Assembly: GCA_019637105.1 (NCBI GenBank)
Contig: JAHBWF010000015.1
Span: 1-64,000, forward strand
Origin: Labilithrix sp.
GTDB taxonomy: Bacteria > Myxococcota_A > Polyangia > Polyangiales > Polyangiaceae
Direction: 5' to 3'
Length of the DNA: 64,000 bases
Below are positions 4,352 to 27,577 of this stretch, one piece after another. The translations under genes and the position numbers were made by a program. A model generated the notes under the pieces. That model had not been told where the DNA came from and ran no database searches. It worked only from the letters and a program-made list of their open reading frames with translations. Position 1 is the stretch's first letter; the number at the start of each line of letters is the position of its first letter.

Positions 4352-6166
4352 ATGGTCCCCAGGCGCTTCTTCGCCTTGACGCTCGCCGCGAGCGGCGTCT
4401 TCGCCGTCTCCCCTGCCGTAGCGCAGGAGCAAGTCGGCTACGCGTCCAATCACTTCAACCCGTCCGAGCGAGGCAGCCAGTGGTTCGTCCTCGACTCGCT
4501 CGACATGCGCGGCCATGGCCGGCTCGCGTTCGGCGTCGTCAACGACTACTCGTACCGCTCGCTCGTCGGCTACCACCCCGACGGCGACGTCACGTCGGTC
4601 GTCCGGAACCAGTATTTCACGCACCTCGGCGCGTCGGTCGTCTTCGCGGACCGCTTCCGGCTCGCGCTCAGCGTGCCCCTCCAGGTCTACGGGGACGGCA
4701 ACACCGCGACGATCAACGGGATCATCCACCGGCCGGCGAGCGACGTGGCCGTCGGTGACGTCCGCGTCTCCGCCGACGCCCGCATCTTCGGGGAGAAGGG
4801 CGACGCGGGCACGCTGGCCGCCGGCGCCGAGCTCATGATGCCCGCCGGCTCGAGGGAGGCGTACACCGGCGACGGCAAGCCGCGCTTCTTGCCGCGCGTC
4901 CTCTTCGCGGGGGAGGCGAGCTCGTTCGTCTACGCCGCCAAGCTCGGCTTCATGATCCGCGGCCGCGACGAGGCCTGGGGCAACGGGTACATCGGCAACA
5001 GCCTCGTCTTCGGCGCCAGCGCCGGCGTGCAGCTCGCCGACAAGAAGCTCGTCGTGGGCCCCGAGGTCTTCGGCTCGACCGTCACGGCGGACTCGCGCGC
5101 GTTCGAGAAGCGCACGACGCCGATCGAGGCCATCCTCGGCGCGCACTACGACGTCGGCGAGAACGTCCGCCTCGGCGCGGGCGTCGGCGCCGCGCTCGCG
5201 CCCGGCTACGGCGCCCCGGCGGCGCGCGCGCTCCTCTCGCTCGAGTGGGTGCCCGGCAACGCCAAGCCCGAAGAGGCCGCCCCGATCGACGATCGCGACG
5301 GCGACGGCGTCCCGGACTGCGAGGACGCGTGCGGCTGGGTCCCGGGACCGCGCTCGAGCGATCCGGCGCGGAACGGCTGCCCGCCTCCGGACGCGGACGC
5401 GGACCACATCCCGGACGAGCTCGACGCGTGTCCGCTCGCCGCGGGCCCCGCGACGGCGGACGCCAAGACGAACGGCTGCCCGGTCGACGCGGACGCGGAC
5501 GGGATCCCCGACAGCGAGGACGCGTGCCCGCGCGAGCGCGGCAAGCGCTCGCTCGACCCGAAGCTGAACGGCTGCGCCGATCACGACGGCGACGGCGACG
5601 GGGTCCTCGACTCCGAGGACGCGTGCCCCGCGGTCGCCGGCGTGAAGACGAACGATCCGAAGACCAACGGCTGCCCCGACCCCGACCGCGACAAGGACGG
5701 CGTGCCGAACGACGTCGACGCTTGCCCGGACGAGCCGGGCAAGGCCGACCCCGACCCGAAGAAGAACGGCTGCCCGAAGGCGTTCCTCGACAAGGGCTCG
5801 ATCAAGATCACCGAGCAGGTCCGCTTCAAGACGGCGAGCGCGGAGATCGTCGGCAAGGACAGCCAGGAGGTCCTCGAGGCGGTGCTCGCGGTGCTGAAGG
5901 CGCACCCGGAGATCGCGCGCGTGCGCGTCGAAGGGCACACGGACGATCGCGGCGGCACCGCGAAGAACAAGACGCTCAGCAAGGCGCGCGCGGAGTCCGT
6001 CGCGAAATGGCTGTCGGATCACGGCATCGACAAAGCGCGCGTGAGCGCGGAGGGCTTCGGTGAAGAGAAGCCGCTCGAACCGAACACGACGGAGGCAGGT
6101 CGCACGGCGAACCGCCGCGTCGAGTTCCACGTGGAAGAGGGTCAGGCTGGAGGAAACGCGCGATGA
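4352..6166 (+). CDS. OmpA-family outer-membrane protein with thrombospondin type 3 repeats
   Basis: Outer-membrane/peptidoglycan anchor. 604 residues: signal peptide 1-25 (ends SPAVAQ), an N-terminal barrel-like domain to about 305, then five Asp-rich Ca-binding thrombospondin type 3-like repeats (about 312-480; DRDGDGVPDCEDAC type), each with a Cys pair and an NGC motif, and a C-terminal OmpA domain (about 485-600) with the peptidoglycan-binding signature around GHTDDRGG and NRRVEF. ATG 4352 is preferred to GTG 4343 because GAGG sits 9 bp before the ATG and nothing precedes the GTG. The stop overlaps the start of the next gene (ATGA). Confidence 0.92.
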   Translation: MVPRRFFALTLAASGVFAVSPAVAQEQVGYASNHFNPSERGSQWFVLDSLDMRGHGRLAFGVVNDYSYRSLVGYHPDGDVTSVVRNQYFTHLGASVVFADRFRLALSVPLQVYGDGNTATINGIIHRPASDVAVGDVRVSADARIFGEKGDAGTLAAGAELMMPAGSREAYTGDGKPRFLPRVLFAGEASSFVYAAKLGFMIRGRDEAWGNGYIGNSLVFGASAGVQLADKKLVVGPEVFGSTVTADSRAFEKRTTPIEAILGAHYDVGENVRLGAGVGAALAPGYGAPAARALLSLEWVPGNAKPEEAAPIDDRDGDGVPDCEDACGWVPGPRSSDPARNGCPPPDADADHIPDELDACPLAAGPATADAKTNGCPVDADADGIPDSEDACPRERGKRSLDPKLNGCADHDGDGDGVLDSEDACPAVAGVKTNDPKTNGCPDPDRDKDGVPNDVDACPDEPGKADPDPKKNGCPKAFLDKGSIKITEQVRFKTASAEIVGKDSQEVLEAVLAVLKAHPEIARVRVEGHTDDRGGTAKNKTLSKARAESVAKWLSDHGIDKARVSAEGFGEEKPLEPNTTEAGRTANRRVEFHVEEGQAGGNAR

Positions 6167-7098
6167 AGACGATCTCGATTCTCGGGCTGCCCGTCGTCCT
6201 GACGGCGGCGCTCACCTCCACCTCCGCGGTCGCGCAGACCGCCCCCGCACCCTCCGGCCCGACCATCCCCGCCGAGACCGTCAAGGCGCAGACCGCGACC
6301 AGCGGCAAGACCGACGTCGCCACGGGAGGCTTCGCCACGAGCGGCCTCCCCGCCGAGGACGACGCGACGCACGCGACGGAGGCGGCGATCGCGGCCGGCG
6401 GCCTCTTCTCGTCCGGCAACGCGCGCACCGTGGCGGTGACGTCGAGCGGCAAGTTCCGGCTCCGCCGGGACGCTCACCAGCTCACCGTGCAGGCCGCCGC
6501 GAACTTCGCGCGCGCGGGCAAGAAGGGCGAGAGCGTCGATACGACGGTCGAGAACTACCAGGGCGTCCTCCGCTACGATCACTTCTTCACCGACCACATC
6601 GCGGGGTTCTTCCAGACGAGCGCGCGCCGCGACCGCTTCCAGGGCCTCGACATGCGCCTCAACTTCGACCCCGGCGCGGCCTACTACTTCATCAACACGA
6701 AGACCCAGCAGCTCCGCGCCGAGCTCGGCTACGACCTGCAGCACGACGTGCGCCGCGACGCCTCGCGCGTCACCCAGAACCCTCCGGCGGACGACGGGAC
6801 GCCGAGGCCGCCGACGATCGCCGACAAGACGCAGACGCTCCACAACGTCCGCGCGTTCCTCGGCTACGACAGCAAGCTCTACAAGGAGGTCGGGTTCATC
6901 ACGAGCTTCGAGTACCTCCAGAACGTGTCGGACCTCGGGACGTACCGCTTCATCTTCGACGTGGGGCTCAAGACCAACGTCGCCGAGAACCTCGCGATCG
7001 CGACCACGTACACGATGCGCTTCGAGAACAAGCCCCTGCCGGACATCGAGCAGGCCGACTCGATCGCGTCGGTCAACCTCGTCTACACGCTCTTCTGA
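6163..7098 (+). CDS. DUF481-family outer-membrane protein
   Basis: 311 residues. Signal peptide 1-24 ending STSAVAQ, a low-complexity Pro/Thr linker, then a beta-barrel-like domain typical of DUF481 (SSGNARTVAVTSSGKFRLRR near the start; repeated aromatic-ended strands; C-terminal strand ending VNLVYTLF with the terminal Phe recognised by BAM). Function in the family is unknown beyond an outer-membrane location. Start ATG overlaps the stop of the OmpA-like gene, so the two are translationally coupled; mscL follows after 6 bp. Confidence 0.88.
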   Translation: MKTISILGLPVVLTAALTSTSAVAQTAPAPSGPTIPAETVKAQTATSGKTDVATGGFATSGLPAEDDATHATEAAIAAGGLFSSGNARTVAVTSSGKFRLRRDAHQLTVQAAANFARAGKKGESVDTTVENYQGVLRYDHFFTDHIAGFFQTSARRDRFQGLDMRLNFDPGAAYYFINTKTQQLRAELGYDLQHDVRRDASRVTQNPPADDGTPRPPTIADKTQTLHNVRAFLGYDSKLYKEVGFITSFEYLQNVSDLGTYRFIFDVGLKTNVAENLAIATTYTMRFENKPLPDIEQADSIASVNLVYTLF

Positions 7099-7104
7099 GG
7101 CCTC

Positions 7105-7533
7105 GTGAGCATCTTAAAAGAGTTTCGAGAGTTCGCGCTCAAGGGAAACTTCGTCGATCTCGCGATCGCCGTCGTCCTCGGCGGCGCCTCCGGCAAGGTG
7201 GTCACGGCGCTCGTCGACAGGGTGATCATGCCGCCCGTCGGCATCGTGCTCGGGAAGGTGAACTTCTCCGAGCTGAAGTTCGTGCTCCAGGAGGCGACCC
7301 TCGGGCCGGACGGCAAGGAGCTCACCAAGGAGGTCGCGATCGGCTACGGGGCCGCGCTCCAGTCCTTGCTCGACTTCCTCATCGTCTCGTTCATCGTCTT
7401 TCTGATCGTGCGCGCGATGAACCGGTTCAAAAAGCAGGCGGCGGCCGAGCCGCCGCCCGAGCCGCCCGCGCAGGAGAAGCTCCTCGGCGAGATCCGCGAC
7501 CTCTTGAAGAAGAGCGCGAAGACCGCCAAGTGA
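7105..7533 (+). CDS. mscL: Large-conductance mechanosensitive channel MscL
   Basis: Homopentameric inner-membrane channel that opens under membrane tension to release solutes on hypo-osmotic shock. 142 residues, near the usual 130-150. N-terminal amphipathic helix and TM1 (FREFALKGNFVDLAIAVVLG, 7-26) with the conserved small-residue pore lining, TM2 about 82-103, and a cytoplasmic helical bundle at the C-terminus (LLGEIRDLLKKS). GTG start 6 bp after the DUF481 gene, so the OmpA-like, DUF481 and MscL genes form one envelope/osmotic operon. Confidence 0.96.
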   Translation: MSILKEFREFALKGNFVDLAIAVVLGGASGKVVTALVDRVIMPPVGIVLGKVNFSELKFVLQEATLGPDGKELTKEVAIGYGAALQSLLDFLIVSFIVFLIVRAMNRFKKQAAAEPPPEPPAQEKLLGEIRDLLKKSAKTAK

Positions 7534-7580
7534 TCGCGAGAGGAGCGAGCATCGACGTGGTCCGTCGGCCCTTCAGCGCG

Positions 7581-7608
7581 TCACGACGGCCTTCGCAGGC
7601 CGTCGTGA
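7581..7608 (+). terminator. 12-bp perfect stem-loop after mscL
   Basis: TCACGACGGCCT, loop TCGC, AGGCCGTCGTGA: a perfect 12-bp inverted repeat 47 bp after the mscL stop and 2 bp before the start of the next small gene. No T-run follows, so it is either a GC-type terminator/attenuator or an mRNA structure controlling the downstream start. Confidence 0.55.
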
Positions 7609-7610
7609 CC

Positions 7611-7826
7611 ATGGAGATGGACCTCGTGCAGACGGCCGAGGAGCTCGCCGCGATGCTCGGCGTCCGCCTCGACCGTCGGCCCGACTCGCCCGAGCGACGC
7701 ACGCTCGAAGGCGAGCTCTGGATGTATCGAAAGACGCTGAACCGCTGGCAGACGGTCCCGCCGAGCGACGACCAAGTGCGGGCGCTGCTCGACCTGCTCG
7801 AGCACCTCGAAGCCCGCGTCCGCTGA
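7611..7826 (+). CDS. Small orphan protein (71 aa), unknown function
   Basis: 71 residues, acidic and helical, with a leucine-rich C-terminus (VRALLDLLEHLEARVR). No signal peptide, no TM, no family recognised. Codon use is strongly G/C-ending, which supports coding. Two starts are possible: ATG 7611 (or 7617), just after the stem-loop, or an in-frame GTG at 7530 overlapping the mscL stop (GTGA) that would give 98 residues but would run through the stem-loop. I prefer the ATG. Its last codons and stop resemble the unit repeated just downstream. Confidence 0.65.
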   Translation: MEMDLVQTAEELAAMLGVRLDRRPDSPERRTLEGELWMYRKTLNRWQTVPPSDDQVRALLDLLEHLEARVR

Positions 7827-7985
7827 CCCACGCGCGCGCCGCGCCACGAAGGCCCGGCGTCCGCGGACCCACGCGCACGGCGCAGCACGAAGCCCGGCGT
7901 CCGCGGACCCACGCGTGCGCGGCGCGGCACGAAGCCCGGCGTCCGCGGACCCACGCGCACGGCGCAGCACGAAGCCGCGCGGCAC
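7808..7985. repeat. Tandem repeat of ~40 bp units carrying a 10-bp palindrome
   Basis: Three well-matched units at 7845-7885, 7886-7927 and 7928-7967 (41, 42, 40 bp), a degraded one after 7968, and a diverged one at 7808-7844 that covers the last codons and stop of the small gene. Each good unit contains the palindrome GTCCGCGGAC (7859-7868, 7899-7908, 7941-7950) and begins CACGAAG. There are no unique spacers, so it is not CRISPR. On the minus strand the units read TTCGTGCTG or close, the same bases that follow two terminator hairpins nearby. Confidence 0.8.
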
Positions 7986-8042
7986 GAAGCGCGCGTCCGT
8001 GGGGCACGCGCGCGCCCTCACAGCGCGCGCCCTCACAGCACG

Positions 8043-8073
8043 AAGGCCGCGACGCCTCTCGGCGCGCGGCCCT
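8043..8073 (-). terminator. Terminator hairpin after gltG-like gene
   Basis: Minus strand: AGGGCCGCG, inner CGCC-GAGA-GGCG, then CGCGGCCTT; about 13 bp of stem with one bulge and a GAGA tetraloop, 26 bp past the stop of the FHA/AgmX-tail gene. Followed on the transcript by CGTGCTG. Confidence 0.65.
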
Positions 8074-8098
8074 CGTTTCGACGACCCGCGGCCGACGG

Positions 8099-10288
8099 TC
8101 AGTCGCCCGGGTTGAAGATGATCGGGTAGACGACGGTGACGATGCCGCCCTCGGGCTGCGGGAACGAGAGGTTCCCGAAGCCGCGGACGACGCACGAGAT
8201 GACGCCCTGATCCGGCAGCTCGCTGCCGCCGTCCTGCGCCGTGGAGACGGCGCCCGAGCGGTCGATGACGAACTTCACGGAGACGCGGCCCGAGAGCGTC
8301 GGGTTGTTGCGCAGGCCGTTCTCGTAGCAGAGACGGAAGCGGCCGAAGTTCTGGCGAACGATGCGCTGGATGACCTCCGGCGGGAGGCGGCCGTTGACCT
8401 GCGTCGCGCCCTGACGGAGCGACGGCGCCTTGGTCGCGTGCGCGCCGCCGAGGCGGCCGTGGCCGTTGCCGAAGCCCTGGCCGGTGCCGGTGCCGGCGCC
8501 GTGGCCGAGGGTGCCGATGTTGCCGAGGCCGATGCCCTCGCCGCGACCGCCGCCGCCTTCGCCGACGCCGGAGAGGCCGAGACCGCCGGCGCCGAACGCG
8601 TCGCCGATGGCGTCACCCCACATGTTGCCGCGCGCGGAGAGCGGGTCGTTGCCGAGCGAGTCGTCGCGTCCCCACGGCGCCGTCGGGGCGTTCGGATCGC
8701 CGCCCGCGCCGACGTTGATGAGGCCGATCATGCCGAACTCCTGCGCTTCCTTCAGCGCAGCCTGCCGCGCGATGTGCGGGTCCGCGTTGTCCTGCGGCCC
8801 CTGCACGCCGTAGCGCTTGTTCGTGTCCTTGGTGTTCGGGTTCCCCATGGAACCCTCCTCACCCTTCGCGCGCGTGCCGGTGCCGCCCTCCTTGTTGTCG
8901 GCGTTCTGGTCCGGCTGCTGCTCGGTCTCCTTCTCCTCCTGCTCACGCTCGGCGGCGGCGTTGAGCATCTTCTGCATGAGGAGGAGCTGGTCGCGGTCGA
9001 TCGCCTCGGCGTCGTCGTTGCCCATCGACGGCATGAAGAACGCCATCGAGGCGACGATGCCGACGTGGAGGAGGAACGAGAGGCCGATGAACATGTACGC
9101 GGCCGGCTCGAAGCTCGAGAAGACGCCGACCGGCGGCGACTTGCCCGCGTTGACCGCGCTGACCTCGAAGACGAGGCCCGCGCCCTCGATCTCCATCCGC
9201 GCCCTCGCGTTGTTCGGGAGCTCGAGCTCGTGCGCGCCGCTCAGCTCCGCGGACGGACGAGCGCGCCCCGACGAGACGAGGTCGTGGAACGTGAAGGTGC
9301 CCTGCCCCGGGATCTCGACCGTGCCGCTCGAGCGCGGGAGGATCACGAGCGCCGCGCTCACGCCGCGCGCGACGACGACGGGCGCGCGCGTGGTGCCGAG
9401 CACCTCGCTCGGCACGAAGTAGTCGGCGCCGGGCTCCTCACCGACGAAGAAGCTCTTCGGCGGCGAGTTGTGCGCGACGTGGAGCGTGTTCTGGTCCCAC
9501 TTGACGAGGACCTCGATGGCCGCGGCGTGCGTCTCGACCTCGTCGGGGTGGACGTCAGGGCCGCTCTTCACGATCGAGAAGGTGTACGGCTGGCTCGGAT
9601 CGAAGTCGCTGCCGCCGGGCGCGTTGAGCGCGTAGCCGCCGCCCTGATCCGCCGCCGACGCGACGAACGGGTTCGCCACCGCCGCGAACGGGCTGGCCAC
9701 CGCCGCGAACGGGTTCGCCTGCGCGAACGGGTTCGCCGGCGCGGGGGGCGCGCTCTGGTTGGAGGCGGGCGCCGCGAACGGGTTCGCCGCGGGGGGCGGC
9801 TGCGACGGCGCCGCGAACGGGTTCGCCGGGGGCGCGCTCCCGCCGGGGATCGCCTGCGCGGCGATCGCCTCGGTCGGCGTGTTGACCTGCATCTGGTGCG
9901 GCGGCACCTGCGGCGTGACGGGCGGCGGCGGCACCGGCGCGCTCGCCATCGCGGCGGTCTGCGCGCCGCCCGCGAGCTCGGCGCTCTCCAGGTGAATCAT
10001 GGTCGACCCGATCTGGATCTGGTCGCCCGGCCGGACCTTGCACTTGTTGACCCGCTGGCCGTTCACCATCGTGCCCGGCTCGTTGCCGAGGTCGATCAGG
10101 GTGATGTCGTTCGGGCCGGCGACCTCGATGACCGCGTGCATGCGCGACGCGAGGTCATCGTCCACGCGCAGGTGGCTGCGCGGGTCCTTGCCGACCTTCA
10201 CGATGTCCTGGGCGATCGTGTCCCTACGCACGAGCTGCTCGCCCTGGTAGAGCGCGAACGTCAGCGCAACCTTCGCCTTGCCTTCCAT
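8099..10288 (-). CDS. gltG: GltG/PglI-like: FHA domain, one TM, AgmX/PglI C-terminal domain
   Basis: Predicted inner-membrane subunit of a Glt-type envelope machine, linking a cytoplasmic FHA domain to a periplasmic TonB-like tail. 729 residues: FHA about 20-105 (VGKDPRSHLRVDD, SRMHAVIE, NEPGTMVNG), Pro/Ala linker 146-213 with five NPF motifs plus one SPF, a second globular region, one TM about 393-417 (FIGLSFLLHVGIVASMAFF), charged then Gly-rich periplasmic stretch, and a C-terminal domain about 635-729 (RLPPEVIQRIVRQNFGRFRL, CVVRGFGNLSFPQPEGG) of the AgmX/PglI tail family. ATG 10288 has AGAGGAAGG upstream; an ATG at 10348 is less likely. Known GltG of Myxococcus has this role; assignment here is by architecture and neighbours. 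Confidence 0.8.
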   Translation of the reverse strand: MEGKAKVALTFALYQGEQLVRRDTIAQDIVKVGKDPRSHLRVDDDLASRMHAVIEVAGPNDITLIDLGNEPGTMVNGQRVNKCKVRPGDQIQIGSTMIHLESAELAGGAQTAAMASAPVPPPPVTPQVPPHQMQVNTPTEAIAAQAIPGGSAPPANPFAAPSQPPPAANPFAAPASNQSAPPAPANPFAQANPFAAVASPFAAVANPFVASAADQGGGYALNAPGGSDFDPSQPYTFSIVKSGPDVHPDEVETHAAAIEVLVKWDQNTLHVAHNSPPKSFFVGEEPGADYFVPSEVLGTTRAPVVVARGVSAALVILPRSSGTVEIPGQGTFTFHDLVSSGRARPSAELSGAHELELPNNARARMEIEGAGLVFEVSAVNAGKSPPVGVFSSFEPAAYMFIGLSFLLHVGIVASMAFFMPSMGNDDAEAIDRDQLLLMQKMLNAAAEREQEEKETEQQPDQNADNKEGGTGTRAKGEEGSMGNPNTKDTNKRYGVQGPQDNADPHIARQAALKEAQEFGMIGLINVGAGGDPNAPTAPWGRDDSLGNDPLSARGNMWGDAIGDAFGAGGLGLSGVGEGGGGRGEGIGLGNIGTLGHGAGTGTGQGFGNGHGRLGGAHATKAPSLRQGATQVNGRLPPEVIQRIVRQNFGRFRLCYENGLRNNPTLSGRVSVKFVIDRSGAVSTAQDGGSELPDQGVISCVVRGFGNLSFPQPEGGIVTVVYPIIFNPGD

Positions 10289-10410
10289 CGTATCGACCTT
10301 CCTCTGGTGCCGCCGCGTCTCGTCGCGGAGAGGCGGCGGTTGCTGCACGCGTCGTCGTCGTTGGTGTCCACCGCTTCGCGCGAACGGCGAAGCGACAATG
10401 AATGATCAGA

Positions 10411-10695
10411 TCAGAGGTTCTCGACGCTCTTCAACATCTCGGGCACGAAGGACGTGCGCGGGCGAATGAGCGTCGTGCGCACCGGGCCGGGACGCACGCG
10501 GATCGTCGCGTCGTTCGGGCCGAAGCCGCCCGCCGCGAGCGGATCGTCGGAGAACTCGTAGCCGTACCCCTCGTCCCTGCCCGTGCCGCCGGTGGCCTTG
10601 ACGCCGCCGCCGCCGCCGGGCTGCTGCGCGAACGCCGAGGCGCTCGTGAGGACGAGCGCTGCTCCCAGGAGACCGAAAAGAACCCGCTTCATCAT
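10411..10695 (-). CDS. Small exported protein between gltE- and gltG-like genes (GltF position)
   Basis: 94 residues. Signal peptide 1-23 (ends SASAFAQ), Gly-rich segment, then a short conserved-looking tail ending FVPEMLKSVENL. No known domain. The ATG pair at 10695/10692 follows GAGGAG by about 6 bp; an ATG at 10755 is not needed. It lies 122 bp before the GltG-like gene and downstream of its own candidate promoter. In Myxococcus a small gene, gltF, holds this slot; homology cannot be shown by eye. Confidence 0.75.
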   Translation of the reverse strand: MMKRVLFGLLGAALVLTSASAFAQQPGGGGGVKATGGTGRDEGYGYEFSDDPLAAGGFGPNDATIRVRPGPVRTTLIRPRTSFVPEMLKSVENL

Positions 10696-10826
10696 CTTCC
10701 GCTCCTCATTTCTCCGACGTCGGGCACCGCTCGAAGGCCCGTTCGCGACGGGCACGTTAGCGGCATTCGTGCCGAAGGGGTAAATCTTCCAATTTCCCAG
10801 GATTTTTGCGCCGCGATTACAGTGAC

Positions 10827-10855
10827 AGTGTACCGCCGGACGGACCGGGCAGCAA
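10827..10855 (-). promoter_or_regulatory. Candidate sigma-70 promoter for the gltF-gltG pair
   Basis: Minus strand: TTGCTG (10850-10855), 17-bp spacer, TACACT (10827-10832), in a locally A/T-richer pocket, about 125 nt before the small exported gene. Hexamer matches are 3/6 and 4/6, so this is a weak call. Confidence 0.35.
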
Positions 10856-11040
10856 GCGGTTCATGTACGCGCGGAGGATCGATCCTGCGAGTTTCGTCGT
10901 CTTTCTAACCGGGAAGCGCCGGGTTCAAGACGTCCTGACAACGTCTCGACCCAGAAGGTTCCCGAGAATCGCAACACGGCTCGCGGGCGACTCCTTTGGT
11001 CGCCCCTCGCCGCGCGCGTCGTTCCGCGCCCCAGCAGCAC

Positions 11041-11072
11041 GAAGGCCCCCCTGGCGAACCAGAGAGGCCTTC
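11041..11072 (-). terminator. Terminator hairpin after gltE-like gene
   Basis: Minus strand: GAAGGCC, TCT, CTGG-TTCG-CCAG, GGG, GGCCTTC: outer 7-bp and inner 4-bp stems capped by a TTCG loop, 20 bp past the stop of the TPR lipoprotein gene. The transcript continues GTGCTGCTGG rather than a T-run. It suggests the three upstream TPR genes are one transcription unit. Confidence 0.65.
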
Positions 11073-11092
11073 GAGCGCGCGGCGCGCGGTGG

Positions 11093-12535
11093 CTACTGCT
11101 TCTCGGACTCGGCCGCCTCCGCGGAGCTCTGGTTGGTCGCGTCCTTCTGCGCGTTCGCATCGAGCTTGAGGAAGGCGATCGTGTCGTCGATGTCGCCGAT
11201 ACGACCGAGGTCCTTCTTCGAGCCGTCGCCCTTCACGCGCTTGACCGCGCCGTCGTACTCCGGCTTGCCCGACGCCTTCTCGAGGAAGGTCTGGAAGATC
11301 TTCTTCGCCTCCTCGAGCGAGGCGATCGTCTTCTCCTTCGCGCCGCCCGACTTCGCCTTGAACTCCTGCGTGAGGATGCCCTCGTTGTAGAAGGCGTCCG
11401 GGCGGTTCGGGTCGATCTTCTTCGCCGCGTCGAGCTCGGCCTGGACGGCCGCGACGCGCTGATCGTAGTCGGCCTCGACGCCCGTGATCGGACCGCGGAG
11501 CGCGAGCGCCATCCCGAGGTGCGCGTCGTAGTCGTTCGGGCGCATCTCGAGCGCCTTCTTGAACGCGCCCTGCGCCTGCTCGAAGCCGCGGAAGCCGAGG
11601 TTGACGAACGCGTAGTTCATCTGCGCCTCGAAGAACTTTGGATCGAGCTTGGCCGCCGTCGCGAACGCGGCGACCGCGCCGTTGACCTGACCGAGCTCGT
11701 TCTGGATGAGGCCCGCGGTGTTGTGGATCGGCGCGTAGTTCGCGTTCTTGCGGATCGCCTGCGAGCAGACGAGGGCCGCGAGCTCGAGCTGCTGCACGTC
11801 CGCCTTCTTCTGCTGCGACGCGTGCGTGATGACCTGACGGCCCTTGCTGGTCTTGCTCGTCCCCTTCACCGCTCCGGCGCGCTTCTTCGCGAGCTGGAAG
11901 TAGTAGAGGGCGAGCTGGTTGAACGCCGGCATGTAGGCGTCGTCGATCGCGAGCGCGCGCTGGAGGTTCAGCTTCGCGCAGTCCATGTCGTCCTTGCAGC
12001 CCTGCCCGCCCTGCGCGCTGTCGCGCGCCATCTGCACGAGGGCGAGGTTGACGAGCGCCGGGACGTTCTGGAACTGCGCGTCGGTGACCGCCTGCTGGAG
12101 GGCGCCGATGGCGGCGTCCTCGTTGCCGTCGGCCTTGTACTGGTAGAGCGCGATCTGCGCGCGCGCGTGGTGGAACTTCGGGTCCGCCGCGAGCGCGGCG
12201 TCGAACTTCGCCTTCGCGTTCTTGTCGTCGTTGCAGCGCTGGTACGCGAGGCCGGCGTTGAAGATCGCCTGGGCGTTCTTGCCGACCTCGTCGAACTTCT
12301 TCGCCACCTCGGCGCAGGCCTCGTTGCTCCAATCGTTCTTCTTGTCGTGCTCGACGAAGAGATCGATCGCAGCGTTGAACTTCGCCTGCGCGTCCTTGCT
12401 CAGCTCGGCGGCGGCGCCGCCGCTCTTCCCGGATTTGCCGTCGGCGCCGGTCTTCGGGCTCGGCTTGTCGCCGCCGCCGCACGCCGCCGTGAGAGCCAGG
12501 AGCCCCGAGACCATGAGTGTCGTGATGCGCTTCAT
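11093..12535 (-). CDS. gltE: GltE/AglT-like TPR lipoprotein
   Basis: 480 residues, close to the length of Myxococcus AglT/GltE. Lipoprotein signal peptide with Cys19 (LLALTAAC), a Gly/Ser/Lys linker, then tetratricopeptide repeats over most of the length (for example AIFNAGLAYQRCNDDKNAKA, ALAADPKFHHARAQIALYQY), a solenoid for protein binding in the periplasm or under the outer membrane. ATG 12535 has GGAG 8 bp upstream. 17 bp after the 1263-aa TPR gene. Proposed role: outer-membrane-side scaffold of the Glt complex; a non-motility role is possible. Confidence 0.8.
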   Translation of the reverse strand: MKRITTLMVSGLLALTAACGGGDKPSPKTGADGKSGKSGGAAAELSKDAQAKFNAAIDLFVEHDKKNDWSNEACAEVAKKFDEVGKNAQAIFNAGLAYQRCNDDKNAKAKFDAALAADPKFHHARAQIALYQYKADGNEDAAIGALQQAVTDAQFQNVPALVNLALVQMARDSAQGGQGCKDDMDCAKLNLQRALAIDDAYMPAFNQLALYYFQLAKKRAGAVKGTSKTSKGRQVITHASQQKKADVQQLELAALVCSQAIRKNANYAPIHNTAGLIQNELGQVNGAVAAFATAAKLDPKFFEAQMNYAFVNLGFRGFEQAQGAFKKALEMRPNDYDAHLGMALALRGPITGVEADYDQRVAAVQAELDAAKKIDPNRPDAFYNEGILTQEFKAKSGGAKEKTIASLEEAKKIFQTFLEKASGKPEYDGAVKRVKGDGSKKDLGRIGDIDDTIAFLKLDANAQKDATNQSSAEAAESEKQ

Positions 12536-12552
12536 GTTTGTGTCTCCTTCGC

Positions 12553-15500
12553 TCACTTCTTCTTGCCGGCCTTGGGCTTGGCGGGAGCGGCCGCCGCGGG
12601 CTTCGCGGCTTCCTTCTTGTCGCCCTCCTCCGAGCTGACCGTGGTCTTCTCGGGGGCGGCCGCCGGCGGGTGCCAGAAGGTCCCGTCCGGGAGGACCGGC
12701 GGCACCTTCTCGTCGAGGCCGCTGTTCGCGAGCGTCGGCGCGCCGCGGAGCTCGTCGACGACGTGGTACTCGGCCTTGTAGTTCTTCGCGAGCCAGACCT
12801 CGCAGCTGCGGCTGAACTCGTCGAAGTACTGGTACTTCACCGACAGGTCGAGGCACTTCTTGAGCGCCGGCTTGGCGTGGTTGACCTTGAAGGGCTCGCT
12901 CGCCGCGTCGAGCGCGTCGTAGTACGTGCCGCGGATGTCGGCGTCCTTCTTCCACGCCTCCGGGATCGGAGCGCGGCGGAAGTCGTCGACGAGGTCACCC
13001 CACATGAGGCCCGCGCGCGAGCCGGCGGCGATGACCCACTTCGGCGGCGGCACGGGCTTCAGCTCGAGGATCTTGACGTACTCGGGCTCGACCTTGCCGA
13101 TCGCGTCGCGCTTCTTCGTGTACCACTCCTTGACCTTCGTGTTGATGTGCTTGAGGACCGAGTCCTTGTCGCCCGGGCCCTTGTAGGCCGGGAACTTCAC
13201 GGTCTCGACGTCGGCCTTGCGGCGCTCCTCCGCCGCGAAGAAGAACGCTTCGCCGACGGCGTTGAGCGCCTTCGCGAGGCGGCGGTCGTGCTGCGCGTTG
13301 TCCTCGTCCGGGTACGCGGCCTTGATCTTCGCCTCCGCGTCGGCCGGGTTGCTCCAGAGCGCGCGGACCTTGGCGTACTCGGCCTTGGCCTGGTTCTCAC
13401 CGCCGCGGAGCTTCGTGTGCGCGCGGGCGAGCGTGGTGCGCGCCTGCACCTGGATGTCGGGCGCCGCCTTCGAGATCGTGCCCATCGCGCCGGACAGGGC
13501 CTTCTGCGCCTTGTCCCACTGCTCGTTGTCGGCGTAGTGCGAGCCGACCGCGAACGCGATCTGCGCCGTCTGCGCCGGCTTGCTGCCGCCGTAGTTCTTG
13601 GTGAAGAGCTGGGCGTCGGCGATCGCCTGATCCTCCTGGCCGAGGCCGAGGCGGAGGATGACGGCGTCGGAGAGGGCCTTGTCGGCGTCGGGCGCCTTCG
13701 GGTCCATCTTCGCGTACTTCTCGTACCACTCGGCCGCGAGGTCGTAGACCGCGATGGCCTGGTAGTTACCGCCGATCTCGTAGGTCGCCTTCTTGGCGAG
13801 CGGCGAGTTGCCCTTCGTGCGCTCGTCGAACGCGAGGAGCGCGCGGCGGACGGTGATCGCCTTCGCGACGAGGCGAGCGGCCTGGAAGGCGCGCGCCGCG
13901 TTGTAGGCGATCTCGTCGCACCTCTCCGCCTGCGGCTGCTGCCCGTTGTTGACCGGGTCCTGGCAGTAGCGGCGGAACATCTCGAAGTACGCCGTGCCGC
14001 CCTTCTCGTAGAGGGCGATCGACTCCTTGCCGCCTTCCTTGTCCGCGCGCTCGACCAGCTTCTGGGCCTTGAGGCGGAGGATGTCGACCTGGATCTTGTT
14101 GAGCGTCGTGCACTGGTCGGCGTTCTTCTGCGCCTTGTCACCGGTGCAATACAGCTCGATGAACTTCGGGACGTCCTGCTCCATGTCGTCGAAGCAGTTC
14201 GTCTTCGAGAAGTGCGAGCCGAGGACGTTGATGCTCTCGAGGTAGAGCTGCGCGGCGTAGATGCCGACGTCGCGATCGGAGTGGTTCATCGCGATCTCGC
14301 GGAACCCGATCGCCGACTCCTCCCAGTGCTGCGACTCGAAGTACGTGCGCGAGCGGGCGTACTTGACCTCGACGAGCTGCTCCTGACCGGCGGCGTCGTT
14401 CGCGGCCGGCTTGATGTAGCAGATGTACTTGTTGAAGGCCGAGACCATGCCCTTCTGGTTCTCGGTCATCTCCTTCGGCTTCAGCTTCTCGGCCTCCGCC
14501 GCGGCCTGGGCCTTCTTGTCGCCCTTCTTGTCGTTCTGGCCGGGCAGGTTGCCCGCGCCCTTCTTGCCGGCGTCGCCCTTGTGGGTCTCGTCGTAGATGT
14601 TCTGGTAGCAGAGCACCGCGGCGTACGCGGCCTCCGCGGCCTCGGGCGCCTGCGGGTTCTCCTGAACGACGGAGTCGAAGGCGGGGCCGCACTTCGCCCA
14701 GTCCTTCTGGAAGTAGAGCAAGTCCGCCATCGCGTACTTGATCTTGTAGATGCTCGGCCAGTCTTCCTTGACGATGCGCGGGAACGTGAACTTCGCGAAC
14801 TCGTCCGCCTGCCAGTTGTCGACGACCTTCTTGTAGAGCTGCGCCGCGAGGCCCATCGTCTTCTGGTCGCCCGTGCCGCGCTGGCCCTGCGAGCCGACGG
14901 CCTCGAGGTGCCACGCCATCGCGGTCTCGGTCGCGAGCGACGCGGTCTTGTTCGCGCACTCGGCCTTCTGCTCGGCGGTGTACCCGCCCGACTTGACCTC
15001 GTTGAAGACCTTGATCTGGTTGTCGACCTCCTTGACGATGATGTCCTTGTTGCCGGACTTCAGCGCCATGGTCGCTTCGGTGATGTGCGCCTGGTAGACG
15101 CAGTGCCGCCCGCCCTTGTCGCGGGTCATCAGGTCTTTGTAGAGGATGATGGCCTCCGGGTAGTGGCCGGTGTCCAGGTAGTTGTTACCCAGATCGTCCA
15201 TCATCCGGTACGTCTTCTCGTTCGACCCGCTCGCGTCGCCCGAGATGTTGTGCATGAAGTTGTAGGCCTGCGCCGGGTCGCCCTTCAGCGCGTAGACCGG
15301 GATGACGTCGCGGCGCGCGGAGTCCGCGAGCTTGGCCGCGCCCGGGAGCTGGGCGTGCACGACGCCGAACTCGACGACCTTCTTGAACGCGTTGAGCGCC
15401 TTCTCGAGCTCGCCCTTGTTCCAGAAGACGTAGCCGAGCTTGTACCAGGCGTAGCCGTACACCTTGTTGTTCGGCGCCGGGTACTTGGTCACCTCGGTGT

Positions 15501-16344
15501 AGGCCTGGGCGGCGAGGTCCCACTTGCTCGGATCGCCCTGCGCCTCGTTGAAGAACAGCTCGCCGAACGCGAGGTACGCGTTCGGGATGTACTTCGACTG
15601 CGGCGCCTTCTTGATGAGGTCGTAGTAGACCGAGCGCGCGTTCTTGAGGTCGTTCGCCTGCTCGTACTCGTACGCGAGGTAGTAGAGAACCTCGTCGATC
15701 TGCCCGTAGTTCGGGTACTCGTTGACGATGAGCGTGTAGTTGGCGATCGCCTTCTTGCGGGCGGCCTTCATGACGGCGTCGGCCTGGTTGGCCTGCGTCT
15801 GCTGCTGCCCCGCCGCGTTGGGGTTCGTCTTCTTGAGCTCGTCGCGCTTGATCTCCGCCTGCGTCTTGTCGCGGAACGCGGCGGACTCGAGCTCGACGTA
15901 CGCCTCGGCCAGGCGCCGCGCGAGCTGCGGGCGGTCCGGCTTGTTCTTCGCGGTCGTCTCGAAGAGGCGCTCGAGGCCCTGGATCTCGGTGACGAGGAGG
16001 GCGCGCTGTCGCGCCTGGAGGCGGCCCTTGCGCTCGTCGCGCGGGGCCTCCTCGATGTTCGGCTTCCCGGGCTTCGTCTGCTGGTCGCGCTTCTTGAGGT
16101 CCGCGGACTGCGGCGCCGAGTGGAAGTTCGTCGCCGGGGTCTTGCTGCCCTTGAACTCCTTCGGCGCGACGCCGCCGGCGCAGGCGTTGAGCGACTGCTT
16201 CGCCTTGTCGTCGATGCAGACCTCCGCGGCGAGCGCCTCGACGCCCACCGTGACGGCGGCGCCGACGACCAGCACCTGGAGGAGGCGACCGAGGGTCGCC
16301 GAACGCGGGCTCGTGGGGGATGCCCCAAGTTGAAGTCGATTCAT
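12553..16344 (-). CDS. gltD: GltD/AgmU-like large periplasmic TPR protein
   Basis: 1263 residues, comparable to Myxococcus AgmU/GltD (about 1.2 kb residues, TPR). Signal peptide about 1-39 (LGRLLQVLVVGAAVTVG, cleavage after EALAA), a charged N-terminal segment, then many degenerate tetratricopeptide repeats (ALNAFKKVVEFG, IANYTLIVNEYPNYGQIDEV, AAAEAEKLKPKEMTE linker) and an Ala/Pro/Lys-rich tail. ATG 16344 was chosen over 16404 because GGGAGG lies just upstream and overlaps the stop of the previous gene; the gap is 7 bp. Proposed structural subunit spanning the periplasm. Family membership rests on size, repeats and gene order. Confidence 0.8.
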   Translation of the reverse strand: MNRLQLGASPTSPRSATLGRLLQVLVVGAAVTVGVEALAAEVCIDDKAKQSLNACAGGVAPKEFKGSKTPATNFHSAPQSADLKKRDQQTKPGKPNIEEAPRDERKGRLQARQRALLVTEIQGLERLFETTAKNKPDRPQLARRLAEAYVELESAAFRDKTQAEIKRDELKKTNPNAAGQQQTQANQADAVMKAARKKAIANYTLIVNEYPNYGQIDEVLYYLAYEYEQANDLKNARSVYYDLIKKAPQSKYIPNAYLAFGELFFNEAQGDPSKWDLAAQAYTEVTKYPAPNNKVYGYAWYKLGYVFWNKGELEKALNAFKKVVEFGVVHAQLPGAAKLADSARRDVIPVYALKGDPAQAYNFMHNISGDASGSNEKTYRMMDDLGNNYLDTGHYPEAIILYKDLMTRDKGGRHCVYQAHITEATMALKSGNKDIIVKEVDNQIKVFNEVKSGGYTAEQKAECANKTASLATETAMAWHLEAVGSQGQRGTGDQKTMGLAAQLYKKVVDNWQADEFAKFTFPRIVKEDWPSIYKIKYAMADLLYFQKDWAKCGPAFDSVVQENPQAPEAAEAAYAAVLCYQNIYDETHKGDAGKKGAGNLPGQNDKKGDKKAQAAAEAEKLKPKEMTENQKGMVSAFNKYICYIKPAANDAAGQEQLVEVKYARSRTYFESQHWEESAIGFREIAMNHSDRDVGIYAAQLYLESINVLGSHFSKTNCFDDMEQDVPKFIELYCTGDKAQKNADQCTTLNKIQVDILRLKAQKLVERADKEGGKESIALYEKGGTAYFEMFRRYCQDPVNNGQQPQAERCDEIAYNAARAFQAARLVAKAITVRRALLAFDERTKGNSPLAKKATYEIGGNYQAIAVYDLAAEWYEKYAKMDPKAPDADKALSDAVILRLGLGQEDQAIADAQLFTKNYGGSKPAQTAQIAFAVGSHYADNEQWDKAQKALSGAMGTISKAAPDIQVQARTTLARAHTKLRGGENQAKAEYAKVRALWSNPADAEAKIKAAYPDEDNAQHDRRLAKALNAVGEAFFFAAEERRKADVETVKFPAYKGPGDKDSVLKHINTKVKEWYTKKRDAIGKVEPEYVKILELKPVPPPKWVIAAGSRAGLMWGDLVDDFRRAPIPEAWKKDADIRGTYYDALDAASEPFKVNHAKPALKKCLDLSVKYQYFDEFSRSCEVWLAKNYKAEYHVVDELRGAPTLANSGLDEKVPPVLPDGTFWHPPAAAPEKTTVSSEEGDKKEAAKPAAAAPAKPKAGKKK

Positions 16345-16351
16345 GGAAACC

Positions 16352-18118
16352 CTACCTCCCACACTTCGAGGTGATGGTCTGCCGGTAGAACCCGAGCTCA
16401 TCACGCCAGTACTCGCCGTCGAACGGCCAAATGACGTGCTCTTCGTCCGGCTTCACGATGTTGCGCTCTTCCGTCGGGCCCTGCACCTGGGAGCCGGCGA
16501 TGGCCGCGTCGAGCTGGTTGCGCTTCGCGGAGTTGATGTCGATGAGGATCTTCGCGCTGTCGCGGAGGTGCTCGTTGAGCTCGTCGAGGTTCCGCTGGTA
16601 GCGCTCGCGGGCGAGCTGACCGGCGTTGCGGACCGCGATGTCGCGCGCGAGCTGCATCGCGTCCTTGACGTCGTTTCCGAGCGGCGAGTCGCGGAACGCG
16701 GCGGGCGCCTTGCCGAACCGCTTGTTCTCGTCGTCGAGCACCTGCACGTACTGGAGGTGGCGGAGCAGCTGGCGATCGCCGAGCGCGTTCTCGACGACGA
16801 TCTTGATGCGCGGAGGCAGATCGGCCTTGCCGTCGCGGACCTGCTTCAAAAACTTGTAGAACGGCTCGTCCTGGTCCTCGCCCTGGAAGCGCTTCAGGAC
16901 CTTGTTCAAGTCGTCGTACATCGGCTGGTACTTCTTCTGGAACTTGGCGACGATCGTCTCGGCGTCGTCGTACTGGCAGTTCGCGAAGTAGATGACCGCC
17001 TTGAGGATCTCGGCCTCGGGGTAGTACGAGTTCGGGAAGTACGGCGACTCGATCGTGTGGATGTTGCCGAGCGCGTGCGCGTAGTCGCCGGCCATGAAGT
17101 AGGCCCACGACTCCTCGAACAGCGCGTCGAGCCAGTACTCGCTGCCCTGGTCGACCTTGTTCCAGTACTTGACCGCCGCCGAGAGCTTCGCGCTGTCGAT
17201 CGTCGGCGAGTTCGACTCGTCGAGGCGGACCGACGCCGAGTAGTACGTGCGCGCCATCGAGAGGAACGCGAGGTCCCTCATGCGGTCCTCGTCCTCGAGC
17301 GTCTCGATCTCGCCGCTGTCGATCGCGCCGACGATGCGCTGGAACGACTGCACCGCCGGGATCGACCGGCGGAGCTGGACGTTGGAGATGCCGGAGAAGA
17401 ACTGACCGCGCACGTAGTACTTCGACTGGCGATCGACCTTGCTGAAGAGGCGGAGCGCGTCGTCGTACTGGCGGTTGCGGTACTTGTAGCGGCCGAGCAG
17501 GTAGTTCAGCTGCCAGTAGAGCTCGCGCTGGTTCGAGTTGTTGAACTTGTCGATCTGCGAGTCGTTGTACTTGCCGACGCGCTCGACGATGTCCGCCGGC
17601 TCCGGCAGGTCGGTCGCGAGCTTCGCGAGCCAGAGGAGCGTCTCGTTGAACTTGAGGTGGTTCGGCTTGTCGGCGATCTCGGAGAAGATGCCGTACGCGC
17701 CTTGATAGAACTTCAGGCGGTAGAGCGAGATCGCGAGGTGGTACTGCGCGAGCTGCTTGTTGCCCTCGTCGTCGCCCGTCTCGCCCTTGTAGACGCGATA
17801 GAGAGCGGCGGCCGCGTCGCCCCACTTCTCACCGTCGAAGAGGCGCTTCGCCTGCGCGGCCTGCTCGGTCATCTGACCGGCGACGGGCGCGGGCCCGCTG
17901 TCGACCGCCTTCGGCTGCGCCGGCGCGTCCGCGGGCGCGGCGGGCTCGTCGAGCTCGATGGCCTGCGATCCGCCACCTGCCGGCGGCTTCGCGGCCGGCT
18001 TCGCCGCGGGCGACTTCGGCCGCGGCTTCTGCGCCATCGCTGGCGACGTCGCGAGCGAGACCGAGAGCATGCACGTTGCCGATCCGATCAGGAGCTTGCG
18101 CAATAGGGAGAGACGCAT
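16352..18118 (-). CDS. Periplasmic TPR protein, first gene of the glt-like operon (possible GltC)
   Basis: 588 residues. Signal peptide 1-29 (ATSPAMAQ), Pro/Ala-rich linker to about 75, then TPR-like helices (AKRLFDGEKWGDAAAALYRV, YHLAISLYRLKFYQGAYGIF) and a C-terminal helical, charged domain with many Arg/Asp/Asn. GAGGAAT precedes ATG 18118. It leads the operon, 7 bp before the GltD-like gene. Myxococcus GltC is also a periplasmic TPR protein but is encoded elsewhere there, so GltC is only a suggestion. Confidence 0.72.
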   Translation of the reverse strand: MRLSLLRKLLIGSATCMLSVSLATSPAMAQKPRPKSPAAKPAAKPPAGGGSQAIELDEPAAPADAPAQPKAVDSGPAPVAGQMTEQAAQAKRLFDGEKWGDAAAALYRVYKGETGDDEGNKQLAQYHLAISLYRLKFYQGAYGIFSEIADKPNHLKFNETLLWLAKLATDLPEPADIVERVGKYNDSQIDKFNNSNQRELYWQLNYLLGRYKYRNRQYDDALRLFSKVDRQSKYYVRGQFFSGISNVQLRRSIPAVQSFQRIVGAIDSGEIETLEDEDRMRDLAFLSMARTYYSASVRLDESNSPTIDSAKLSAAVKYWNKVDQGSEYWLDALFEESWAYFMAGDYAHALGNIHTIESPYFPNSYYPEAEILKAVIYFANCQYDDAETIVAKFQKKYQPMYDDLNKVLKRFQGEDQDEPFYKFLKQVRDGKADLPPRIKIVVENALGDRQLLRHLQYVQVLDDENKRFGKAPAAFRDSPLGNDVKDAMQLARDIAVRNAGQLARERYQRNLDELNEHLRDSAKILIDINSAKRNQLDAAIAGSQVQGPTEERNIVKPDEEHVIWPFDGEYWRDELGFYRQTITSKCGR

Positions 18119-24010: not shown

Positions 24011-24153
24011 CGAGGCCGCGGCCCGGCCCTCCCGGACGCGGCCCCGCGCTGCGGGGGCGGAGGCTCCGCCGGACGGCGCGAGGCCGAGCTGCCCCGCCCG
24101 GTCGAGCGGCGTTGACGGGGCGTGCCCCCCCTCCTTATAAGAAGCGACCCTCG

Positions 24154-25383: not shown

Positions 25384-25700
25384 CTTCCGAGAAATGTGCA
25401 AGGTGCACGAGATCGGTCTTAGACTGACGCGGCGCCGTTCGAAGGACCGCGCGCCAGCGAGCCTTTGACGGCGTCACGCGAAGCTCTCCTAGCCACGACG
25501 ACTCGCCACGACGACCGGACGCCGACGTCGATCGACGGTCTACGAGAGGTACTTGGGGATCTCCCCCAAATTGAGATTGCTCGGCCAAAAAGATCCGTGT
25601 TATCGTGCCGCGCAACTCTGCAGTACCCCTGATTCCTCAATTTTTCTCACGTGTTGCAGGCCCGAATGTTGATGCGGCCAGGATGTGGAAGGGGTTCTTG
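25384..25700. other. Intergenic region upstream of outer-membrane barrel pair
   Basis: About 317 bp. An A/T-richer stretch at 25560-25650 probably holds the promoter (TTGCTC at 25578 and TTATCG near 25601, 17 bp apart, weak match). A GGAAGGGG ribosome-binding site at 25686-25693 fixes the downstream start. No gene seen. Confidence 0.4.
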
Positions 25701-26687
25701 ATGAAGCACGCTCGATGCTGGCTCCTCGCGGTGGTGGCCCTGTGGCTGCTGCCACAGGCTGCTTTTGCGCAGCCGAAGAAGCCCGCTGGAGGCGGCAAGC
25801 CTCCTCCCACGGCACCCGAACCGGCGCCCGCCGGCGGCGATATCGAAATCGACGATCCGAACGTCCCGGCTCCCGAGGAGCCGACGGAGCCTGCGCCCGC
25901 CCCGAGCGGTGAAACGGGCGACGGCGGCGGCGGGATCTGCGAGATCGATCCCACGGCCTGCCCCAAGCAGGGCGACATCAAGGCGCTGTCCGAGCGCTCC
26001 GTGAAGGCGGACGTCTATGCGGTGCAGCAGATCTACGCGCTGCGTCGCGGCCGCTTCGAGATCAACCCGTACTGGAGCCAGAGCCTCAACGACCAGTTCG
26101 TGAGCCACCCGGGCCCCGGCCTCGCGGTGAACTACTACCTCACGAACGTCCTCGCGGTCGGCGTCAACGGCACCTACTACCAGCCGTTCAACTCCGACGC
26201 GGACTTCAACTTCGAGAACCGCCGCGCGACGCGCATCGCCGTCCCGCTCACGGAGTACCTCGGCGGCTACGCGGTGAACTTCACGTACGTCCCGATGTAC
26301 GGCAAGTTCGCCGGCTTCAGCCAGTTCATCTTCCACTACGACGGGTACCTCGTCGGCGGCGTCGGCGGCCTCTTCACGCGCCCGATCCCGGTCATCGATC
26401 CCGACAACCGCAAGTTCGACTTCGAGCACCGCATCGCCTTCAACCTCGGCTTCGGGCTCCGCATCTTCCTGAACCGGTGGTTCGCGGTGACGGGCGAGAT
26501 CCGCAACTACATCTACGTCGAGCACCTCGAGAACACCGAGGTCGCGGCCACCCAGGCAGCGGCGCAGAACCCCAATGACCCGGCGTCGCCTTGGATCAAG
26601 GAGAAGCCGCTGACCGTCAACGTCCAGGCCCAGGTCGGCATCAGCGTGTTCTTGCCGTTCAGCTGGGAATACAGGTTGCCCAAGTGA
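25701..26687 (+). CDS. Outer-membrane beta-barrel protein (OMP_myx_plus type), first of a tandem pair
   Basis: 328 residues. Signal peptide 1-24 (LPQAAFAQ), Pro/Gly/Ala linker with a small Cys-containing piece, then a barrel: KADVYAVQQIYALRRGRFEI, NYYLTNVLAVGVNGTYYQPF, ending in strand VGISVFLPFSWEYRLPK. The motif of a ruler-like first strand followed by NPYWSQSLNDQF resembles the myxobacterial OMP_myx_plus family. ATG 25701 follows GGAAGGGG by 7 bp; upstream ATGs at 25605/25683 lack this. Next gene 29 bp on. Related barrels (GltA/GltB) are part of the Myxococcus Glt complex; this pair is a candidate equivalent. Confidence 0.82.
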   Translation: MKHARCWLLAVVALWLLPQAAFAQPKKPAGGGKPPPTAPEPAPAGGDIEIDDPNVPAPEEPTEPAPAPSGETGDGGGGICEIDPTACPKQGDIKALSERSVKADVYAVQQIYALRRGRFEINPYWSQSLNDQFVSHPGPGLAVNYYLTNVLAVGVNGTYYQPFNSDADFNFENRRATRIAVPLTEYLGGYAVNFTYVPMYGKFAGFSQFIFHYDGYLVGGVGGLFTRPIPVIDPDNRKFDFEHRIAFNLGFGLRIFLNRWFAVTGEIRNYIYVEHLENTEVAATQAAAQNPNDPASPWIKEKPLTVNVQAQVGISVFLPFSWEYRLPK

Positions 26688-26716
26688 TCTCCTCGAACCG
26701 GCACCAAGGACGAACG

Positions 26717-27577
26717 ATGAAGCAGGCCTGCAAGCTCGCTCTGGCGGCAGCGGCACTCGCGACCGGCGTTTCTGCCGTCCCCGCGACCGCGAGCGCCCAG
26801 GAGATCCAGATCACGGGTCCGCTCGCCGGCGCGCCCGCGGGGCGCAAGCTCCGTCTCTACCGCGAAGGCCGCGCGGAGCTCGCGCTCGGCGGCGGCTTCA
26901 CCCTCCTCGACGAGTACAAGCGGACCATCTTCATCTCGGGCCGGCTCCAGTACAACGTCTTCGACTGGCTCGGAATCGGCGTGTTCGGCGGCTTCTCGCC
27001 GGAGGCGCTGAGCCTCAACACCGACCTCACCGACCGCATCGACTCCACGCCCGCGCCGCGCAACAGCCGCACGGCCGTCAACCTCCCCGGCACCGTCGGG
27101 CAGCCGGCGTTCGAGCAGCAGACCGGCAAGCTCGGCTGGATGGCGACGCCGCAGGTGACGTTCAGCCCCTTCCGCGGCAAGCTGGCGCTCTTCCAGAAGC
27201 TCTTCGTCGACACCGACCTCTACCTTCACGGCGGCGTCGCGTTCGTCGGCGTGAAGGAGCGCGGCGACTGCGGCGCGCCGGGTCAGACGGCGTGCACGGC
27301 GGCGGCGAGCTTCCAGCAGGTCGACCGCGTCGCGGTCGCGCCGTCGTTCGGCCTCGGGCTCACGCTCTACCCGTCGAACTTCGTCAGCATCAACCTCGAG
27401 TACCGCGCCTTCCCCTTCTCGTGGAACCGCGGCGGCTTCGACTCGCGCGGCGCGGGCCCCGACGCGTCGTTCCCGGACAACCGGATCGACTCCGAGGACC
27501 GGACGTTCAAGTTCAACCAGATGATCTTCGTCGCGGCCGGCTTCCACTTGCCGACGTCGCCCAAGGTCAGCGACTAG
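26717..27577 (+). CDS. Outer-membrane beta-barrel protein (OMP_myx_plus type), second of a tandem pair
   Basis: 286 residues. Signal peptide 1-28 (PATASAQ), then barrel strands starting [20 protein letters not shown] and ending [18 protein letters not shown]. It shares length and layout with the preceding barrel, suggesting an old duplication or a heteromeric pair. ATG 26717 has AAGGA 7 bp before it. A short extracellular loop carries the only Cys pair ([13 protein letters not shown]). A GGCGG/CCGCC inverted repeat follows the stop. Confidence 0.8.

Follow-up and report, generated by a model that had tools for sequence, protein, structure and literature searches.

The Agl-Glt machine of Myxococcus xanthus is encoded by the glt clusters G1 and G2 and by a separate motor cluster, M1 (PMC3169522). 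Section 13 of the same paper describes Glt and the M. xanthus Nfs system as mutual closest relatives. Its GltA and GltB proteins are paralogs, both of them integral barrels of the outer membrane with affinity for GltC, and the three proteins interact pairwise (PMC4488436), and AglR of the motor interacts with both GltG and NfsG in two-hybrid assays (PMC3858216). Here we analyze bases 1-64000 of contig C57 (the window, 64,000 nucleotides in all) from a Labilithrix sp. genome (G000; 8.45 Mb, 91.5% complete), which carry a cluster of gltC-, gltD-, gltE-, gltF- and gltG-like genes. We estimate a probability of roughly 85% that this cluster, together with the window's tandem pair of barrel genes and two AglR-Q-S-type operons elsewhere in the genome, encodes a vertically inherited trans-envelope machine of the Agl-Glt/Nfs type. 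Envelope machines of this kind are already known; the unexpected part is the loss of a TPR lipoprotein gene and a giant GltI-like gene.

As in M. xanthus Agl-Glt, the Labilithrix genome combines gltC through gltG with gltA/B-type genes, its motor is unlinked, and its gltG product carries an FHA domain, a single transmembrane (TM) segment and a TonB-like tail. Unlike in M. xanthus, gltC heads a gltDEFG operon, the gltA/B-type genes lie about 8 kb away in divergent orientation behind ftsY, the GltI-like gene is missing, and GltJ and CglB are represented by uncertain candidates only. The A-G set without a gltI gene is shared with Nfs (nfsA-H), but the window genes do not form one uninterrupted cluster and probably diverged before the glt/nfs duplication. 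The core clusters of gammaproteobacteria and Geobacter, and the f21 clusters (L160, L161 and L168 of G007, G086 and G150), also have homologues of gltD/E/G (and gltC). Those clusters hold aglRQS; in place of the motor genes, the window offers gltF in the cluster and gltA/B linked to it.

The five-gene cluster and its linked barrels

We looked for GltA-GltG, GltI, GltJ, CglB and AglRQS. For the Glt proteins, NCBIfam models served in place of M. xanthus sequences, a procedure by which Glt and Nfs orthology is not directly separable. The cluster comprises the following genes.

16352..18118, minus strand: gltC-like, exported TPR protein of 588 amino acids (NF033756 gliding_GltC, 304.4 bits, cut-off 450, E 1.9e-90)
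12553..16344, minus strand: gltD-like, exported TPR protein of 1263 amino acids (position and family profile)
11093..12535, minus strand: gltE-like, TPR lipoprotein of 480 amino acids (NF033758, 52.8 bits, E 3e-14, cut-off 225; lipobox LTAAC by eye)
10411..10695, minus strand: gltF (CglF)-like, small exported protein of 94 amino acids (NF033764, 18.1 bits, E 0.002; signal peptide by eye)
8099..10288, minus strand: gltG-like, FHA domain, one TM with SxxxH and AgmX/PglI (TonB-like) tail, 729 amino acids (NF033760, 307.9 bits, cut-off 650)

All five open reading frames (ORFs) are intact, with G+C contents at third codon positions (GC3) of 0.85-0.97, and stand in the order given by the original prediction, which had recognized a Glt layout in these minus-strand genes. 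Gaps of 7 bp and 17 bp separate gltC from gltD and gltD from gltE, respectively. The proposed layout holds, as evident by NCBIfam matches for GltC, GltE, GltF and GltG and by the position and profile match of GltD, and the additional periplasmic TPR gene that had been noted in front of the others is gltC (304 bits). GltC and GltG align with their models over nearly full length (E about 1e-90). The GltG tail also matches NF033768 (AgmX/PglI) at 83.8 bits, above the cut-off of 40, and is the only part of the cluster to exceed its own NCBIfam cut-off; the FHA domain is PF00498. Solved-structure searches with GltG returned FHA domains only. The profile comparison proposed along with the prediction succeeded for GltC, GltE, GltF and GltG, all at scores below cut-off, but not for GltD, since no NCBIfam GltD model matched the window protein.

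For GltD, a bridge is provided by locus L131 of genome G001, in which two neighbours surpass their thresholds: GltC at 480 bits (cut-off 450) and GltF at 100.5 bits (CglF cut-off 90). A GltD profile built from the window family and named relatives, with L131 excluded, scores the L131 GltD at 207 bits (E 5e-62); an earlier profile that included L131 gave a circular value of 1065 bits, and 207 bits is the value without it. The window protein is considered gltD-like because of its position and because this profile matches the GltD that lies beside over-cut-off GltC and GltF genes in L131. It is 98% identical to GltD of Labilithrix sp. ACE_MYX5.

Gene order was compared in 18 GltC neighbourhoods taken from genomes of the phylum (L131, L133-L148 and L152) and in 12 loci of named relatives; these counts, and those of motor absence given below, were made on all reading frames of at least 80 amino acids. 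The genes gltC-D-E-F-G are co-linear in 18/18 of the fetched loci. Among the named relatives all five are present in nine of the 12 loci, L036 and L038 being cut by a contig end and L040 carrying gltD only. (L040 is excluded from the barrel-order, GltI-loss and gltF counts, and L036, which stops at its contig end, from the barrel-order and GltI-loss counts.) A GltF family profile detected gltF in 29 of 34 loci, the window counted, with a common C-terminal motif in 28 of these 29, and scores the L131 GltF at 27.6 bits. Even in distant genomes, gltF sits between gltE and gltG and has the CglF C-terminal motif. In the ACE_MYX5 locus (L029, 15525-17841), two additional ORFs, the first of the MbnP family, lie between gltE and gltF, where the window has no room.

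Although adhesin and outer-membrane genes had been thought to lie outside the window, this is wrong for the GltA/B-type barrels, which are found at 25605-27577.

25605..26687, plus strand: gltA-type outer-membrane beta-barrel (TIGR04565, 86.7 bits, above cut-off 60; linkage to gltC conserved)
26717..27577, plus strand: gltB-type outer-membrane beta-barrel, in tandem with the gltA-type gene (TIGR04565, 52.2 bits, below cut-off 60; tandem order the same in relatives)

TIGR04565 represents a family of such barrels and not GltA/B alone. A barrel query taken from beside gltC in G001, where the two genes adjoin, matches window positions 26004-26516. When 17 genomes were searched, barrel and gltC were linked in 8/8 genomes of the same order (G000, G036, G089, G051, G102, G115, G149 and G177), and GltA/B-type genes thus appear tied to gltC within the order of the window. 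In the remaining eight of the 17 genomes, the best barrel match and gltC are on different contigs (G037, G076, G085 and G263) or at least 200 kb apart (G007, G086, G107 and G150). The common order is gltB-gltA-ftsY-...-gltC, with some intervening genes unmatched in some genomes; Pfam confirms the ftsY product as an SRP54-type GTPase. An ftsY gene adjoins a gltA/B-type pair in two classes of the phylum, at L244 (G107:C44) and at window positions 24010-27577.

The empty site of a GltI-like gene

M. xanthus GltI is listed in Table 1 of PMC3169522 as a TPR-rich protein of 4132 amino acids, without a signal peptide, encoded downstream of gltG. The corresponding part of the window is empty.

7534..8098, no strand: empty site after gltG, where relatives carry TPR lipoprotein and giant GltI-like TPR genes (locus comparison)

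Downstream of gltG, a gene for a TPR lipoprotein of ~300 amino acids is found in 17 of 21 loci (L031-L035, L037-L039, L135-L139, L141, L142, L149 and L152), 20 of which could be judged because L140 stops at a contig end. Sixteen of these 17 loci also carry a giant TPR gene, and the other, L035, ends first. The two genes are farther off, by about 1-7 kb, in L139 and in L149, the latter being a second gltG copy. Where a longer downstream stretch was inspected, a giant ORF of 3356-4148 amino acids was present in 11/11 genomes, seven of them already among the 17, and the lipoprotein query matched in 10/11. The giant gene is probably GltI-like because of its size, architecture and place.

Neither gene, nor any significant remnant, is found at the locus in the window or in two close relatives, L029 and L030. 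A search of G000, which is 91.5% complete, likewise yielded no ortholog of the giant gene (best match 26% identity over 495 amino acids) and none of the lipoprotein (best 20.9 bits); the best matches to the giant gene were read as generic TPR similarity. Judged by these comparisons of sequence, the absence of both genes is a real loss and an unexpected feature of the window cluster. L034, which keeps both genes, nests between L030 and the window in the GltD tree, a placement that requires two losses or one regain. At the place of the relatives' GltI-like gene, window positions 4343-7533 encode, convergent to gltG, MscL, a DUF481 protein and an OmpA/thrombospondin-3-repeat protein that scores 210 bits against the TraB model (cut-off 700).

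Motor operons elsewhere in the genome

The original prediction placed the motor genes outside the window, and this is borne out, since motor profiles match no window ORF of at least 80 amino acids and no MotA/ExbB motor gene is present there. Its description of the cluster as one without its motor genes treats as an anomaly what is the normal state, because aglRQS is unlinked in M. xanthus and because motor genes were found in 0/18 of the orthologous loci fetched across the phylum; none were found in the nine five-gene loci of named relatives. Glt clusters that look 'motorless' are thus widespread in Myxococcota and do not represent a relic.

The genome-wide search for AglR/Q/S that had been advised uncovered eight MotA/ExbB-family genes in G000, two of which head divergent AglR-Q-S-type operons on contig C314. 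In L041 (G000:C314, features at 5648-10632 and 16572-17606), some 6 kb separate these operons from a gene for MreB (498 bits in Pfam). Both operons retain the transmembrane Asp in both TolR-like subunits, and a divergent motor pair also occurs in G177, G149, G102, G115 and G051. The 'AglRQS type' designation rests on gene order and trees because the libraries scanned hold no AglRQS model; solved-structure searches with the motor returned TolQ/ExbB only.

Across 282 genomes of the phylum, GltC and an AglR-type motor occur together in 209, GltC without the motor in 14, the motor without GltC in one and neither in 58 (Fisher 1.6e-45). Thresholds, chosen once the lists were known, were GltC E<1e-10 and AglR E<1e-25; relaxing the latter to E<1e-20 changes the table to 211/12/5/54. 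Counting was by eye, with 34 GltC-negative genomes taken as those not listed positive and weak GltC matches in G050, G070, G148, G153 and G256 scored negative, and the AglR count takes in all motor lineages rather than type 2 (see below) alone. Co-occurrence is an association, not proof, because absences cluster by family and thresholds were post hoc. The suggestion that this machine acts with motors located elsewhere in the genome is nonetheless supported by the C314 operons and by this association.

Two motor types separate in a tree built from 30 sets of concatenated AglR-Q-S sequences. The type 2 clade (100/100; 13 rows) includes one C314 operon and the motors of G036, G089, G107 and G037. 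The type 1 clade (100/99; 10 rows) includes the other C314 operon and joins, at 92/94, four motors of second clusters in which a GltG paralog is adjacent, one from G001 and three from f21 genomes (G007, G086 and G150).

C314, about 19.6-21.5 kb, minus strand: type 2 motor operon (AglR-Q-S tree)

G000 also carries a second Glt-like cluster on contig C179 (L046, G000:C179, 4021-16000), which encodes a GltG paralog, a GltD-like protein of at least 1480 amino acids, a small exported protein and a Poly_export/SLBB protein; it is possible that this cluster is a polysaccharide machine. In the GltD tree, its GltD-like protein groups on a long branch with the GltDs of embedded-motor clusters.

Working model and alternatives

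In our working model, a motor, more likely the type 2 motor on C314, would use proton flow to move GltG. With its FHA domain, single TM and TonB-like periplasmic tail, GltG would act as a TonB/TolA-like transducer and pass this motion via periplasmic GltD, GltE, GltF and GltC to the outer membrane. There, the GltA/B barrels would in turn move a surface cargo, such as slime, polysaccharide or an adhesin, with gliding or Nfs-like polymer deposition as the outcome. This order of components seems most likely because of the published AglR-GltG, AglR-NfsG and GltA-GltB-GltC interactions and the features of GltG. The pattern SxxxH marks the motor contact of TonB and TolA. It occurs in the TM of the window GltG and in 19/31 GltG proteins above 650 bits, a fraction at which it was not accepted as a strict GltG signature. 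A conserved His has been noted at the SxxxH position (PMC12204202).

Several observations weigh against an Agl-Glt/Nfs-type machine as described. The NCBIfam equivalog scores of GltC, GltE, GltF and GltG all fall under the curated cut-offs, as for distant members. Of the 12 GltG proteins in which SxxxH was not found, another hydrophobic segment was seemingly taken for the TM in five, and His is truly absent from some of the rest. L040 has gltD (9989-13699; 63% identical) without gltC, gltE, gltF or gltG within the 23-kb locus, which may reflect misassembly or a genuine break-up. The window cluster lacks the GltI-like gene, and a genome scan with the GltJ model gave partial matches that are uncertain candidates (best 48 bits, cut-off 450). 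Candidates for CglB are VWA lipoprotein-like proteins on contigs C281 and C8, retrieved by querying with a VWA protein of G001 that is itself a putative CglB at most. Furthermore, the f21 genomes G007, G086 and G150 contain the cluster without a type 2 motor, the Fisher value overstates the case given family clustering and post-hoc thresholds, and the genome is less than complete. Separately, at L049 (G000:C157, 6024-7695), two overlapping frames encode a GltJ-like Zn-ribbon and GYF part (74.5 bits) and a TM plus AgmX/PglI-tail part, a split that may stem from a sequencing error or from a true frameshift.

Even so, we see almost no room for an unrelated TPR/Tol-type system whose likeness to Glt is merely generic to TPR, FHA and TonB proteins. 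TPR proteins do cross-match widely, and the GltE and GltF scores are low, but the near-full-length GltC and GltG matches, the placement of gltF with its CglF motif in distant genomes, the conserved gene order and the linked barrels all speak for Glt, and chance similarity was rejected given the full-length matches and conserved order. Scarcely more credible is an ancestral, non-gliding and truly motorless machine, as the original prediction had entertained on finding no motor in the window, and to which the weak scores against M. xanthus-based models would also conform. The genome has two AglRQS-type operons, and the ancestral core described in PMC3169522 has aglRQS in the cluster and no gltA/B/F, the reverse of the window, where the group A genes gltF and gltA/B are present. 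GltDs of motor-containing clusters (G007, G086 and G150) moreover group apart in a GltD tree that is unrooted and displayed with a midpoint root, and the ancestral form was rejected on these grounds. A function like that of Nfs, in which the machine transports or wraps surface polysaccharide (spore coat or capsule) without gliding, is a serious minority option. An A-G set without a GltI-like gene resembles nfs, for which section 13 of PMC3169522 gives no gltI/J/K, and the window cluster is probably co-orthologous to both Glt and Nfs, given that these are each other's closest relatives. In contrast, the GltI-like gene is retained, as in gliding cluster G1, by the majority of the orthologous clusters examined, and a polysaccharide-export gene adjoins the C179 cluster, whereas none was seen among the scanned window neighbours, where no systematic search was made. 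Section 12 of PMC3169522 speculates that possession of AglRQS and GltA-G may enable any bacterium to glide, by which G000 would be a potential glider; the absence of the GltI-like gene points the opposite way.

As for the motor, the window machine could be driven by type 1 instead of type 2, or by both, and we hold this to be plausible but not the favored arrangement. A single motor serves Glt and Nfs in M. xanthus (PMC3858216), and the f21 genomes hold the cluster without type 2, which is why a strict pairing of type 2 motor and cluster was not accepted. However, the gltC-G cluster of G036 and G089 is accompanied by a type 2 motor only, and the type 2 clade also takes in the sole AglR-type match above 50 bits in G107. 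Of 43 genomes of the order, 41 have the C179-type GltG paralog; the two exceptions, G036 and G089, are likewise devoid of type 1. This co-loss is probably one event because the two belong to the same genus, and G172, which has the paralog and no clear type 1 motor, is discordant. Tree and co-loss weakly suggest that type 2 would drive the window machine and type 1 the polysaccharide-linked C179 cluster. A more tentative proposal, and on balance an unlikely one, is that the lineage shed its GltI-like and lipoprotein genes while keeping motor, transducer and barrels, yielding a natural GltI-free machine, perhaps shifted from gliding to Nfs-like transport, and two motor-machine pairs (type 2 with gltA-G, type 1 with C179). 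Comparing lineages that differ in possession of the GltI-like gene, and genomes that have one motor or two, offers a natural test of which parts serve gliding and of how motors and machines pair.

One further feature distinguishes some motor lineages. In the motors beside second-cluster GltG paralogs and in a third lineage (L160, L161, L168, L162 and L169-L171), the transmembrane Asp at the AglQ position is replaced by Asn and that of AglS is kept, such that a single TolR-like subunit of the pair retains an acidic residue in those motors.

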